64,000 nucleotides of DNA, from the NCBI GenBank assembly GCA_019636555.1, contig JAHBXH010000001.1, forward strand, positions 1,116,001-1,180,000, given 5' to 3'. Both the position numbers and the translations under genes were made by a program. Positions 33,805-44,860 of this stretch are shown piece after piece (position 1 is the first letter of the stretch; each line of letters opens with the position of its first letter). This DNA comes from Phycisphaeraceae bacterium. GTDB lineage: Bacteria; Planctomycetota; Phycisphaerae; Phycisphaerales; UBA1924. Below the pieces are notes generated by a model, which was not told where the DNA came from, did no database searches, and saw nothing but the letters and a program-made list of their open reading frames with translations.

Positions 33805-35640
33805 TTAGCGCTGCTCAATATCCATTTTGACCGGCGGAATGAACTTGGCGATCAGCTTATTGCCGACTCCCCAGCCGACGATTTCGGTTCCCTTGCTTGG
33901 TGCGAAGATGAGCTTGAGTTTCTGATCCGGGCGGCTGCGAGAAACGCTGGGCAAGTCGCCCGACACCGACTGGATTGGCTCACCGATGATGTAGCGGATT
34001 CGCACTTCCTGCGGATCCTGATAAACGAATCCAACCGCGTCGTAGCGGATGCCATTGGAATCAATCACGAACGGCGACGCGGGAACCGAAGTGTCGATCG
34101 CTGCCTCGCGCGCCGCAGAGCCGGTCAACCCTGCCTCGCCCCGCTCGTATCCCGCGTCAACCATGAGAAGCGCGACCTGATCGGGCGGTGCGAATCGATC
34201 GACGCGGAGGTTCTGATCCACGCCTCGGTTCTGCGTGTCCTTCGGTGAGAGCAAAGTTGTGCCGCTGACGATTCGTCCGTTTGTGACCGTGATGCTCGAT
34301 CCGAGGGTGCCATCCTGCAGAACCAGCCCGATCTGATTGGTCGGAGAAACGCCGGTGGAATTCGGGTCGGTCCCTCCCAGAGTGACAGTGACCGCTTTGC
34401 TCTCATCCAGAGGCTTCTGAGACTTGCCCGAAGTGAGCTGGCCGGCGGCGATCAGCGAATCGCGCTTCTGGCGGCTTTCGAATTCCACAGGCTTGAGCTT
34501 CTCGTCGGCAGGATCGAAGCGCACGCGCGTTCCCTTCACGACGATCGCAATCGGGGTCTGGTCCGCGGGCACCATGAATTCAAAGGCCCAGTTCGATTCC
34601 GAATCACCCCCGAGCGAGGCGAGGAATGTCCCCTTTGCGTCGTATCGGAAGCGTGCGATGGCGGTTTTGCCCGCTTCGGCCTTGCTGACCACGGCATTAG
34701 GAAACACAAAGTGCGTCTCGCCCGCGCTGTCCTCGGTCAGAAGATAAACCTGCCCGTTGCCGATGATGACCTGTCCGCTGGTTCGCTCCTTGGCTCCCGC
34801 GCGGAACTTGACGATCACACCGTGCAGCTTCGCATCTTTGCCTGGGGCTTCGCCGTTAAACAGTTTGACACCTTGGGGTGTGCGATCGAAGCCGTCAGCC
34901 CGCAGGTCGTTGGCGTCTCCCTGTGGGGCCGCTCCAGTCTTGGGCGATGCTTCGGGCGCCTTCAACTTCGCCGGATCGAGCACGTACCGGCCGATGATGT
35001 CGAAGTCTTTCCGCTCGAGCGAAGTTCGCGCCGTTCCGTCCAGGTAACTCGCGCGCGCGCTCGCTTCAAAGACCGCCGGATCCGGATTCCAAACCGCCAG
35101 CGGCTCCGGGCTTGAAAACGAGCCGCGGCTGAGGCGTGAGTAGAGACCGCTCGTCAGCCGATCGGTCGGCACCCAAAGCGACGAGCCGCGCTGGACGTTG
35201 CCTGCGGCGTCGCTCGAGATTGCTTCATAGCCCCAAGCGCTGGAGCCGATCCGCATTCCCGAAAGCGTGAGAACACAGATGCCCGACACGATCACCCCGG
35301 AAACGACGCCGAAGAGAGAGCCCACGATCCAGTCGCTGGTGGGCGAGAATTTCAGATTCTTCCTGATGAGTGAATCCGTGACCGCCCGGAAGACGAGCAA
35401 AGCAAGGAAGAACGGGATCGCGAGTCCTGCGCCCCACGCGATGTCCGCGAGCAGCGAACTCATGCCGCGGGTTCCCGCCGAGCCGATCAGCCACGTCGCG
35501 ATCGGCTCCCACAGCCCGAAGGCGATTGCGCCCGCGAACACGACGCACATGCAATTCAGCAGCGAGGAAAAACCGCCTCGGGCGCCCCAGGCGTAGGCGA
35601 CGCCCCCGAGAATCGCGATGGCGAGAACATTCATGATCAT
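33805..35640 (-). CDS. CvpA-like membrane protein with a large C-terminal domain
   Basis: 611 aa. The first 160 residues have four membrane helices (residues 3-20, 28-48, 66-87, 104-128) in the CvpA/colicin V production arrangement. The remaining 450 residues are soluble, beta-rich and of no recognised family; they contain QVYLLTEDSAGETHFVF and a region with YERGEAGLTG. CvpA proteins are normally about 160-200 aa, so this is an unusually long member. GGAGG precedes the ATG. It ends an apparent minus-strand operon after the GspE-like gene (24-base gap). Confidence 0.6.
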   Translation of the reverse strand: MIMNVLAIAILGGVAYAWGARGGFSSLLNCMCVVFAGAIAFGLWEPIATWLIGSAGTRGMSSLLADIAWGAGLAIPFFLALLVFRAVTDSLIRKNLKFSPTSDWIVGSLFGVVSGVIVSGICVLTLSGMRIGSSAWGYEAISSDAAGNVQRGSSLWVPTDRLTSGLYSRLSRGSFSSPEPLAVWNPDPAVFEASARASYLDGTARTSLERKDFDIIGRYVLDPAKLKAPEASPKTGAAPQGDANDLRADGFDRTPQGVKLFNGEAPGKDAKLHGVIVKFRAGAKERTSGQVIIGNGQVYLLTEDSAGETHFVFPNAVVSKAEAGKTAIARFRYDAKGTFLASLGGDSESNWAFEFMVPADQTPIAIVVKGTRVRFDPADEKLKPVEFESRQKRDSLIAAGQLTSGKSQKPLDESKAVTVTLGGTDPNSTGVSPTNQIGLVLQDGTLGSSITVTNGRIVSGTTLLSPKDTQNRGVDQNLRVDRFAPPDQVALLMVDAGYERGEAGLTGSAAREAAIDTSVPASPFVIDSNGIRYDAVGFVYQDPQEVRIRYIIGEPIQSVSGDLPSVSRSRPDQKLKLIFAPSKGTEIVGWGVGNKLIAKFIPPVKMDIEQR

Positions 35641-35664: not shown

Positions 35665-37410
35665 TCAGGCCTTGGGTTTGGCGGGTTGCTTGGTCGCCGG
35701 CTGCGCACCGGGAGCCGCGGATTTGGTGCCGTCGGCGGTGATGCGAAGCACCTCTTCGACGCTCGTGACGCCGTCGATGGCTTTTCGCAGTGCGGCCTGT
35801 TGTATCGAAGGCAGGCCGCCCTTGCGCAATTCGGCTTTGAGCCCCGCCCAGTTCTGAGAGCGGATCATTTCCCGCGCCGATTCGTCGATGTTGAAGACCT
35901 CGAACGCGCCGTCGCGCTGCAGATAGCCCGATCCCTGACAGACAGGGCACGTCTCCGGCTTGTTCTTCACCAGAACCTCGCCGCCCTTTTTGAACAACTG
36001 CTTCACCCTGTCCGGCGGAAGGCCGAGTTTCTTGAGCACGTCGGGCGACGGCTGGTACGCCTGCTTGCAGTTGATGCACAGTTTGCGGAGCAGCTTCTCC
36101 GACATGACCCCCTGAATCGTCTTCGCCGCGACGTCGGCGTCGCCGATCAGCCGAACCCACGTCTGAATCGCGCCGATGGCGCTGTCCGCGTTCAGCCCCG
36201 CGTAGACGCGGCACTTGTCGGGATCGGCCTTGACGATCTCCTTCGCCGTCTGCGGGTCGGGGACGCTCGCGACGCCGACAATGTCGGGGTCGCGCCGCAG
36301 AATCGAGCGCACGAGCGTTGCGTAGTCGGGGCCTTCCGACATCGCGTCCCATTTGTTCTGCCGGATGCCCTCGAGCGCGTCCTCGATTTCAATTTCCACC
36401 GTCTGCACGTTGTTGGTATACGCGTCGTGCATTTTCATGACCGTGTACAACGCGGTCGTGAGCCCGCCTTGCGGCGGGGCGCTGAGCAAGACGACGCCGC
36501 CGCGCGTGGTGGACCAGGCGCGCACGATCTCGATCTGCTCAGGTGTCCATCCGATCTGCTCCGGAGTCTTGCGCACCTGCGCTTCGGGATCGATCAGAAT
36601 CGTGAGTTTCTGGCCCGATTGCCCGCCCGAGGTTTCGATGTGAAGCTTGTTCTTCGTCGCGCCGCGCTCCACGGTGAGATCGGCGGACTGTTTCTTGCGA
36701 CGGTCCGCGACATCGAGCTTCGCGGCGGATTTCCAGAAATCGATCAGTTTGATCCCCGCCGCCGCGGGCATCGTCTCGCCCGGCACTTTGACCCCGTCCA
36801 CATTGAAAACGGTCTGGTACGACTCTTTCGAGCCCGGCACGATTTCGATGCGCGCCGAACGGATATCGAGCGCCTTCATCACAATCGCTTCGCCCGCCAG
36901 CCTGACCTCGAAATCCGGCGAGTCGGTCGCGGGGATGTCCACCGCCGACTTGTCGATCCTGCGGAACGTGAGAACCGACGTACCCGCCTTCCCTTTGACT
37001 TTCTTTTTCCCCATTCCCTCGGTGAGGCTGGCGATCTTGGAAAGTTCGAAGGAGACTTTGCCGCCTTCGGGCACACGTTCGTCGCGGTTCGCGACGACGA
37101 CGTACGCCACGACGCTGCTGGCGAGAATGAGGCTGAACACAACGAAACTGACGAGCCACGTCAGCGAACCGCCCTCTCCCAGCGAGGGCATGAACATCAC
37201 GGCGAGGAGCGCCAGGAGCGCCGCGGCGCAGTGGATGTAGTTCCACATCTCCCGCTCAAGATAAAAGCGTGCCGCGTGCTTGTCGCACACGGTTGAAACC
37301 GCCCACGCCCATGCGAGCAGGGGAAACAGAAACAGCACCGGCTTCCACCAGCTCACGAGCGTGAGGGCGTCTGCAAGCGTCAGAATCAAAGCGTTCGTCT
37401 CAAAGCCCAT
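35665..37410 (-). CDS. Membrane-anchored GspE/PilB-family protein with degenerate ATPase motifs
   Basis: 581 aa. Three or four membrane helices lie in residues 1-107, a GspE N-domain-like region follows, and then the secretion-ATPase domain. The domain is recognisable from QIEIVRAWSTTRGGVVLLSA, RSILRRDPDIV, SEKLLRKLCINCKQAY and the second zinc pair CPVCQGSGYL (residues 445-491). The P-loop GPTGSGKTT is replaced by APPQGGLTT (311-319; the Lys is Leu), Walker B VGEIRD by VASVPD (380-385), and the His box TLHTN by GLNAD. ATP hydrolysis is therefore unlikely and a scaffold role is suggested. No pilin, PilC or secretin genes are nearby. GGAGG precedes the start. Confidence 0.85.
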   Translation of the reverse strand: MGFETNALILTLADALTLVSWWKPVLFLFPLLAWAWAVSTVCDKHAARFYLEREMWNYIHCAAALLALLAVMFMPSLGEGGSLTWLVSFVVFSLILASSVVAYVVVANRDERVPEGGKVSFELSKIASLTEGMGKKKVKGKAGTSVLTFRRIDKSAVDIPATDSPDFEVRLAGEAIVMKALDIRSARIEIVPGSKESYQTVFNVDGVKVPGETMPAAAGIKLIDFWKSAAKLDVADRRKKQSADLTVERGATKNKLHIETSGGQSGQKLTILIDPEAQVRKTPEQIGWTPEQIEIVRAWSTTRGGVVLLSAPPQGGLTTALYTVMKMHDAYTNNVQTVEIEIEDALEGIRQNKWDAMSEGPDYATLVRSILRRDPDIVGVASVPDPQTAKEIVKADPDKCRVYAGLNADSAIGAIQTWVRLIGDADVAAKTIQGVMSEKLLRKLCINCKQAYQPSPDVLKKLGLPPDRVKQLFKKGGEVLVKNKPETCPVCQGSGYLQRDGAFEVFNIDESAREMIRSQNWAGLKAELRKGGLPSIQQAALRKAIDGVTSVEEVLRITADGTKSAAPGAQPATKQPAKPKA

Positions 37411-37531: not shown

Positions 37532-38689
37532 TCACTTGAGCTTCTTCAACATCATGTTGAGTTCGTCGACGTTCGGGCTGGTTTCCTGAGCAACCCGGAG
37601 GTGGATGTATTCCTGCTCGACCAGCTTCACCAGCGAACGGTTGAAATCGACCATCCCCTGCTGCTCGGCTTCCACGCTCTTGAGGTACTCACGAAGTTCG
37701 CCCTCGCGAGCCTCCAGAATGAACTTTCGGACGACGCCGTTGTTCACCAGAATCTCGAGCGCCGGGATGCGGGCGATTTCCGGGTGGAGTGTCGGCAGAA
37801 GCTTTTGATAAACAAACGCCCGCATCTGATACGCGAGGATTCGGCGCACCGCATCGACCTCTTCCTGTTCGAAGAGCCCGTAGATGCGGCTGAACGTCTG
37901 CGTCGTACTCGAAGCGTGGATCGTCCCGAACACCAGGTGTCCGGTCTCGGCGGCGTGCAGGGCGGCTTCAAAAGTTTCCTGGTCTCGCATTTCGCCGACC
38001 AGCACGATGTCCGGATTTTCGCGCACGAGCGCACGCAGCGCAATCTTGAAATCCAGGCAATCGAGCCCGATCTCGCGCTGGTTGATCGTCGCTTTCTTGT
38101 CTTCGAAGATGTATTCGATCGGGTCTTCGATCGTGACGATGTGGACGCTCTTGCGCTCGTTCACATAGTCGAGCATCGACGCGATCGTGGTGGATTTGCC
38201 CGATCCGGTCACGCCGCACAGGAGCACGATGCCCTGGGGCTGCATCGAGACCTCCGCCATGATCGGCGGCAGATAGAGATCCTCGAATTTGCGGATCTTG
38301 CTCGTAATGAGTCGGGCAGCGACCGACAGCTTGCCGCGAGCCTGGAACAGGTTCACGCGGAATCGGTTCTTCGCGTCGTAGTCGTACGCGAAGTCGACCG
38401 AGCCGAACTTGTGCAGGTCGGCGATCTGCTCCTCGTCGAGAATGTGCTTTGCGATCTCCCAGAATTCCTCGCGCGAGACCGGCTCGCAATCGAGCGGCTT
38501 GAGCGCGCCGCGGAGGCGAAGCTTCGGCACCTGATCGGACTTCATGATCAGGTCGGAGGCTTCGAGCTTGATCGCGGCCTGGAGAAACTTGCCGAAGCGC
38601 GTCGCGTGCGGATCGTGTTTCTGATCGGGCATCGAAGCGATGTGACCGGTTGGTGAGGAATCGGTCACGGTGTCGGTGGAAAGGGTCAT
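37532..38689 (-). CDS. pilT: Type IV pilus retraction ATPase PilT family protein
   Basis: 385 aa from the chosen ATG. Intact hexameric ATPase motifs: Walker A CGVTGSGKSTTIAS, Asp box TIEDPIEYIFEDKK, Walker B NPDIVLVGEMRDQET and His box LVFGTIHASSTTQ. The N-domain has KLEASDLIMKSDQVPKLRLRG, the PilT-type start. It would disassemble type IV pilus filaments and power twitching. The open frame runs 318 bases further upstream, but similarity starts near this ATG, which GGGGAG precedes; a second ATG lies at 38632. The degenerate GspE-like gene follows on the same strand after 121 bases. Confidence 0.9.
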   Translation of the reverse strand: MTLSTDTVTDSSPTGHIASMPDQKHDPHATRFGKFLQAAIKLEASDLIMKSDQVPKLRLRGALKPLDCEPVSREEFWEIAKHILDEEQIADLHKFGSVDFAYDYDAKNRFRVNLFQARGKLSVAARLITSKIRKFEDLYLPPIMAEVSMQPQGIVLLCGVTGSGKSTTIASMLDYVNERKSVHIVTIEDPIEYIFEDKKATINQREIGLDCLDFKIALRALVRENPDIVLVGEMRDQETFEAALHAAETGHLVFGTIHASSTTQTFSRIYGLFEQEEVDAVRRILAYQMRAFVYQKLLPTLHPEIARIPALEILVNNGVVRKFILEAREGELREYLKSVEAEQQGMVDFNRSLVKLVEQEYIHLRVAQETSPNVDELNMMLKKLK

Positions 38690-43577: not shown

Positions 43578-44860
43578 CAGGCTGTTGAAGAATCCCGCAA
43601 AGCCCGCGCAACCGGAAGTTTCCGGCGTGCGAAGATGAGGGCATGAAGGGCACACCCGGTCGGCAGGCGGCGATCTACCACACGTTCAACGTCGAAGATT
43701 TGATCGAGACTGGCCATCCGCTGCGGCCGATCAAGCGGATGGTGGACGCGGCGCTCGCGGAGATGACCCGCACGTTTGCCGCGGCGTACAGCAGCCTCGG
43801 GCGGCCGGGCATCCCGCCCGAGACGCTGCTCAAGGCGCTCCTGCTGCAGTGTCTCTACACCATCCGGTCCGAACGCGAGCTGTGCAGGCGTCTGAAGACC
43901 GACCTCCTCTTCCGCTGGTTCCTGGATTTGCAGCCATCGGACGAAGTGTTCGACCACTCGGTCTTCACGCACAACCGCGACCGGCTGGCCGAGCACGGCA
44001 TCACGAGGAAGTTCTTCGAGCATGTGGTGAAGCAGGCGATCGATGCGGGATTGACCAGCGACGAGCACTTCACGGTGGACGGCTCGCTCATCCAGAGCCA
44101 CGCCTCGCTCAAGAGCCTGAAGAGGATCGAACGCGAGGCGTCGGACAAAGACGACGATGGACCATCGGGACGCAACCCATCGGGGGACTTCAAGGGCGAG
44201 CGGCGGACCAACGCGACGCACGCCAGCACGACCGACCCGGAGGCGAAGCTCTACAAGAAGGGGAATGGGGTGGGAGCGTTCCTCTGTCACTCGGGCCATG
44301 CGCTCACCGAGAACCGGCACGGGCTGGTGATGAGCGTGCGGGTGGATGAAGCCAACGGCACGGCCGAGCGTGCCGGCGCGCTGGCGATGCTCGATCATGT
44401 CGAGTGCCGGCACGGGGTGCGTCCATCCACGCTGGGTGCGGACAAGGGGTACGACGCGGGGGCGTTCCTGCTGGCGCTCGAGGAGCGCTGGATCCGGCCG
44501 CACGTGGCGATCAAGGAGGGGAAGATCGACTGGGCGAGCACGCGTGCGGACGAGGGAACCTGGGCGAGATGGTTCGTCCGCGGCGAACGACGGAGCGCCG
44601 CGTTCAAGAAGAGCCAGCGACGAAGAAAACTGGTGGAGGAGTTCTTCGGATGGGTCAAGACGGTGGCGGGGATGAGACGGGCCAGGCACGTGGGACGCGA
44701 GAAGATCGGGCAGTGCTTCGAGCTCGCCGCCGCGGCGTACAACCTGGTGCGGATGCGGAAGCTGCTGGCGGCGTGAGCGGTGCGGGAAACCAGCCAGCAG
44801 GAACGATGCCGCCGGGGAAGTGCTCAAATCGCCGGCAATCGGCCGTTGTTCAACAGCCTG
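43578..44860 (+). mobile_element. Complete IS5-family insertion sequence (1283 bp)
   Basis: Inverted ends match at 14 of 15 positions (CAGGCTGTTGAAGAA on the left, CAGGCTGTTGAACAA as the reverse complement of the right). A 4-base duplication CTAG flanks it at 43574-43577 and 44861-44864, the CTAR-type target typical of the IS5 group. One transposase gene lies inside. Intact ends and an unbroken gene suggest a recent insertion. Confidence 0.92.
43643..44776 (+). CDS. IS5-family DDE transposase
   Basis: 377 aa. The N-terminal domain has RPIKRMVDAALAEM, GRPGIPPETLLKALLLQ and RELCRRLKTDLLFRWF. DDE residues: Asp in FTVDGSLIQSHAS near residue 150, Asp in LGADKGYDAGAF near residue 270, and Glu in KLVEEFFGWVKT near residue 333. 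Full length and uninterrupted, so probably active. GAGGG precedes the ATG. Confidence 0.94.
   Translation: MKGTPGRQAAIYHTFNVEDLIETGHPLRPIKRMVDAALAEMTRTFAAAYSSLGRPGIPPETLLKALLLQCLYTIRSERELCRRLKTDLLFRWFLDLQPSDEVFDHSVFTHNRDRLAEHGITRKFFEHVVKQAIDAGLTSDEHFTVDGSLIQSHASLKSLKRIEREASDKDDDGPSGRNPSGDFKGERRTNATHASTTDPEAKLYKKGNGVGAFLCHSGHALTENRHGLVMSVRVDEANGTAERAGALAMLDHVECRHGVRPSTLGADKGYDAGAFLLALEERWIRPHVAIKEGKIDWASTRADEGTWARWFVRGERRSAAFKKSQRRRKLVEEFFGWVKTVAGMRRARHVGREKIGQCFELAAAAYNLVRMRKLLAA

Follow-up and report, generated by a model that had tools for sequence, protein, structure and literature searches.

Our analysis indicates that the class Phycisphaerae retains a membrane-anchored member of the PilB/GspE family whose ATP site has been lost, and from comparison of the sequences we are highly confident that this protein is a conserved pseudo-ATPase. 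The gene was found in a stretch of 64,000 nucleotides (contig JAHBXH010000001.1 of a Phycisphaeraceae bacterium; hereafter the window), together with the features listed in Table 1. Judged by its sequence and predicted structure, the product, called here pseudo-PilB, is a PilB/GspE family member by fold which lacks the catalytic features that define the family (PMC5424180, PMC10191384) and fails as an ATPase on that account.

Table 1. Features of the window, with positions counted from its first nucleotide.
Feature	Positions	Strand	Remarks
CvpA-like membrane protein	33805..35640	-	4 TM helices and a beta-rich domain of ~450 aa; begins 24 bp past the pseudo-PilB stop; own GGAGG
Putative pseudo-PilB/GspE	35665..37410	-	3 TM helices (aa ~22-109), N2D (~161-275), degenerate C-terminal ATPase domain, tetra-Cys zinc site (C445, C448, C488, C491)
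Degenerate His box	36184..36204	-	aa 403-409 (YAGLNAD)
Degenerate Walker B	36256..36279	-	aa 378-385 (VGVASVPD)
Degenerate Walker A	36454..36480	-	aa 311-319 (APPQGGLTT)
Intact PilT-family ATPase	37532..38632	-	GVTGSGKST, VLVGEMRD, GTIHAS; TIGR01420, 376.7 bits vs cut-off 319.1
377-aa ORF	43643-44776	+	transposase-like by eye only

The pseudo-PilB frame is open over 581 aa, with a GGAGG motif 5' of its ATG. Residues 170-556 match positions 10-370 of the 370 in the Pfam T2SSE profile (PF00437; E 6.8e-41, 140.6 bits against a cut-off of 24.9). The AlphaFold2 model (mean pLDDT 89) has the N2D domain and the C-terminal RecA-like fold of the PilB/GspE family, and among PDB entries Foldseek matches it best to Geobacter PilB and Thermus PilF (TMt about 0.85). 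No N1 domain could be recognized. The scores on TIGR02533 (162 bits, cut-off 630) and TIGR02538 (153 bits, cut-off 676) remain below equivalog level, as is likewise the case for an intact relative (L172, 447). Hydropathy and the structural model agree on three N-terminal helices (about aa 22-48, 53-72 and 79-109), so that of the 'three or four' given in the preliminary description only the lower number holds.

Seven intact full-length GspE/PilB paralogues are encoded in the same genome, with the motifs GPTGSGKTT, VGEIRD and T[LV]H[TA] (e.g. TLHTN). Comparison with these paralogues confirms the loss of Walker A, Walker B and His box noted previously: the window protein has APPQGGLT where Walker A requires GxxxxGK[ST], Ser382 in place of the catalytic Glu of Walker B, and GLNAD at the His box. 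The Asp-box Asp and both Arg fingers have disappeared as well, which the preliminary description had not reported. The Arg-finger positions, set with moderate certainty by alignment and residue spacing, are occupied by His257 and Leu272, whereas intact membrane orthologues of other planctomycetes have Arg at each (16/16 and 16/16). The DPDIV segment and both CxxC pairs do survive in an intact frame, as had been stated, and with them all four zinc Cys and the Asp-box Glu (Glu339). A misalignment of the motifs can be ruled out, as the P-loop is anchored by Gly316 and Thr318 and the fold is preserved in the model. Nor can the state of the P-loop be an error of sequencing or of reading frame, as it is common to 96 orthologues.

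A protein search of 60 relatives gave a match in every genome, nearly always the pseudo-PilB gene at full length with its helices. The exceptions were fragments at contig ends and two genomes (G012 and G060) whose best matches score like canonical GspE. At the scale of the class, a profile search gave a strong match in 198 of 198 genomes. Motifs were read in 96 orthologues, 59 from the order and 37 from the rest of the class. The Walker A Lys is absent from all 96, against its presence in 16/16 intact membrane orthologues, a contrast well beyond chance; most proteins of the order have Arg at this position, most of those in the other orders Leu or Val. The His-box His persists in a single class orthologue (0/59 in the order, 1/37 in the rest of the class; 16/16 in the intact orthologues), the Asp-box Asp in three of the 96 (15/16 in the intact orthologues) and the Walker B Glu in 40, while both Arg fingers are mostly lost. 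No class orthologue has more than three of the six catalytic residues. Gly316 and the Asp-box Glu are invariant (96/96 each), the P-loop Thr/Ser after the Gly is also retained, and the tetra-Cys set is present in 57/59 proteins of the order and 37/37 of the others. In two members of the order (L041:5219-6934 and L057:6349-7269) most of the zinc Cys have gone as well, and the zinc site is thus not absolutely required. Just after the P-loop helix, His328 is nearly fixed (92/96) at a position occupied by Ile, Leu or Val in intact proteins, which suggests that this residue may have gained a role.

Pairwise omega (NG86) lies between 0.05 and 0.13 for most genus pairs and reaches about 0.2 for the most distant, rough values since dS is near 1. 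Together with the class-invariant residues, this is the pattern of a gene which, as far as sequence comparison can tell, is under strong purifying selection across the class. Relaxed selection was not seen, and homologues sharing the degenerate P-loop are under constraint, as expected if the protein is a pseudo-ATPase. This reading, already put forward in the preliminary description, is strengthened by the conserved degeneracy, the low omega and the retention of fold and zinc site.

None of the 96 class orthologues read has an intact P-loop; this motif is intact in more distant orthologues with the same helices, which probably preserve the ancestral state. In a phylum-wide search of 294 genomes, no more than five further families had full-length orthologues with the helices. 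Three of them have an intact P-loop, Walker B and His box, and in the remaining two (L184; L186 and L187) these motifs are degenerate. When the motif columns were removed before tree building, the class came out as a single clade (SH-aLRT 99) with the intact orthologues outside it, and the other degenerate sequences as a second (SH-aLRT 100). The tree does not settle how these clades and the main intact group branched from one another, and one or two catalytic losses would fit. As orthologues with an intact P-loop in other planctomycete lineages carry the same helices, the ancestor was probably an active membrane-anchored PilB motor which died in Phycisphaerae. The helices thus predate the catalytic loss and were not 'gained' by a degenerate protein, as first suggested. 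A second degenerate T2SSE protein, soluble and 434 aa long, is encoded at L188:2713-4014 on the minus strand (SGPPNSGLTTTT, zinc Cys retained), beside metabolic genes (DHDPS, TPP enzyme) and in a genome which also has an intact membrane PilB. Short matches similar to it are present in several genomes of the same family.

The pilT frame remains open to 39007, and homology starts near the ATG at 38632. An intact PilT lies upstream of pseudo-PilB in 73 of 88 class loci (46/52 in the order, 27/36 in the rest of the class) and in 10 of 18 loci outside the class; it is not adjacent in 15/88 and 8/18, respectively. Four genomes of the order without this adjacency have a PilT of 76-81% identity elsewhere. 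The CvpA-like gene is a more constant neighbour than PilT: it lies downstream of pseudo-PilB in 96 of 97 loci of the class and in at least 16 of 19 outside it, and no other gene recurs as widely in the neighbourhoods scanned. The protein of the window reaches 22.1 bits on PF02674 (curated cut-off 29.3). Its beta-rich domain is modelled with confidence by AlphaFold2, and a fold search of the PDB with the model of the protein gave no meaningful match; homologues outside the class are short, of the size of the membrane part alone. In locus L100 the gene order is PilT, intact GspE (583 aa, GPTGAGKT), pseudo-PilB and CvpA-like. The four GspF/PilC genes of the host genome are all outside the window.

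As the ATP site is lost, the gene is held by selection and a working pilus motor gene is usually adjacent, pseudo-PilB is probably a structural docking part rather than a motor. We suggest that it may be a membrane-anchored, nucleotide-independent platform or adaptor, in the first place for the adjacent PilT, with the CvpA-like protein as its membrane partner. From the sequences and gene order considered here, we would give this proposal an even chance, and the specific role of PilT platform an even chance at best. The idea of a membrane platform for PilT, already present in the preliminary description, is made plausible by the adjacency of the two genes, although the CvpA-like gene accompanies pseudo-PilB even more faithfully. 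By homology a ring is assumed, in which the subunits of pseudo-PilB would be joined by their N2D and C-terminal domains and which the helices would fix to the inner membrane. The loss of most Arg-finger contacts across subunits counts against a ring, and the loci in which no PilT is adjacent count against a partnership with PilT. Such a ring would not cycle through nucleotide states, and the ATP-driven work would have passed in Phycisphaerae from the ancestral membrane PilB to PilT or another motor. The strongest candidate is PilT, given its adjacency, its co-occurrence and the precedent of Vibrio cholerae, in which an ATP-dead PilT still supports PilU-driven retraction (PMC6821130, PMC6762196). 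The Asp-box Glu coordinates Mg in PilB (PMC5424180), and its conservation with that of the P-loop Gly and Thr/Ser could allow some residual ligand binding.

The main rival to a PilT platform is a membrane signalling protein, in which a PilB-like ring frozen in a nucleotide-free state would report pilus or envelope status without docking a motor. We consider this rather unlikely, although it has a precedent in Myxococcus xanthus, where PilB with a mutated Walker A continues to signal for the production of exopolysaccharide and the apo protein has been proposed as the active state (PMC5544727). The downstream partner, integral to the membrane and bearing a large beta-rich domain, would also suit such a role. 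However, no signalling gene accompanies pseudo-PilB with any consistency; the genes that do recur beside it encode PilT and the CvpA-like protein. Alternatively, pseudo-PilB could join an intact GspE/PilB paralogue in a hetero-oligomer and be its non-catalytic subunit, comparable to rings in which some subunits are dead. The seven intact paralogues of the genome and the GspE inserted in L100 would be in line with this, but L100 is the only such case among the loci scanned, and class members have mostly lost the Arg fingers by which one subunit would act in trans on the active site of the next, which makes a mixed ring improbable. Even less probable is an ATPase that remains active although the Lys of its P-loop is replaced by Arg, Leu or Val. 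The P-loop does retain a Gly and the Thr/Ser after it, the Asp box retains the Glu that binds Mg, and Arg, common in the order, is a conservative change. Nevertheless, the other orders mostly have Leu or Val, and the losses extend to the Walker B Glu, the Asp-box Asp, the His box and the Arg fingers. The P-loop stretch is also more variable (pN/pS 0.255) than the zinc and C-terminal part, the tightest of the protein (0.063). Finally, the lost motifs could be those of a decaying pseudogene, a possibility close to nil and ruled out by open frames throughout the class, low omega and class-invariant residues.

Returning to the platform, one could go further and suppose that Planctomycetota have a separate membrane machine, distinct from a pilus, which is composed of PilT, the dead membrane PilB and the CvpA-like protein. 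PilT would drive this module on a membrane-fixed dead ring; the module would have no dedicated pilin, PilC or secretin, and the ATP-burning role would have moved from the membrane ring to the soluble motor. This broader scenario is speculative and, in our opinion, unlikely.

PilB/GspE proteins are regarded as ATPases by definition and are named accordingly by annotation pipelines, and here a whole bacterial class retains one without an ATP site. Orthologues with an intact site in other lineages of the phylum allow a direct comparison with the dead form, a natural test of what a PilB ring may contribute apart from ATP hydrolysis. Our data also draw attention to a gene group of Planctomycetota, made up of PilT, membrane PilB and the CvpA-like gene, which is widely conserved and undescribed. 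Our searches of the open-access literature yielded no account of a naturally dead PilB/GspE, of a pilus pseudo-ATPase or of this gene group.

Pseudo-PilB shares the N2D and C-terminal fold, the tetra-Cys zinc site and the Asp-box Glu with the PilB/GspE ATPases (PF00437; PDB 5TSG/5TSH for PilB, 5OIU for PilF, 1P9R for EpsE). In contrast to these soluble proteins, it has three N-terminal membrane helices and lacks the catalytic residues and a recognizable N1. Also close to it are the membrane PilB-like proteins of other planctomycetes (L169-L183 and L185), for which no description was found in the literature searched. Orthologous by tree and gene order, they have the helices, the zinc site and the downstream CvpA-like gene, but their P-loop (e.g. 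CGPTGAGKST), VGEIRD and His box (TVHA) are intact and they are presumably active ATPases. PilU and TfpB, as auxiliary motors, exemplify a second family member which aids the main motor, as pseudo-PilB would; both are, however, catalytically intact. With the Walker-mutant PilT of V. cholerae acting via PilU, pseudo-PilB would share the principle of an ATP-dead family ring that supports an active paralogous ring. The dead PilT is an engineered laboratory mutant of a soluble motor, whereas pseudo-PilB is natural, class-wide, membrane-anchored and of the PilB type.
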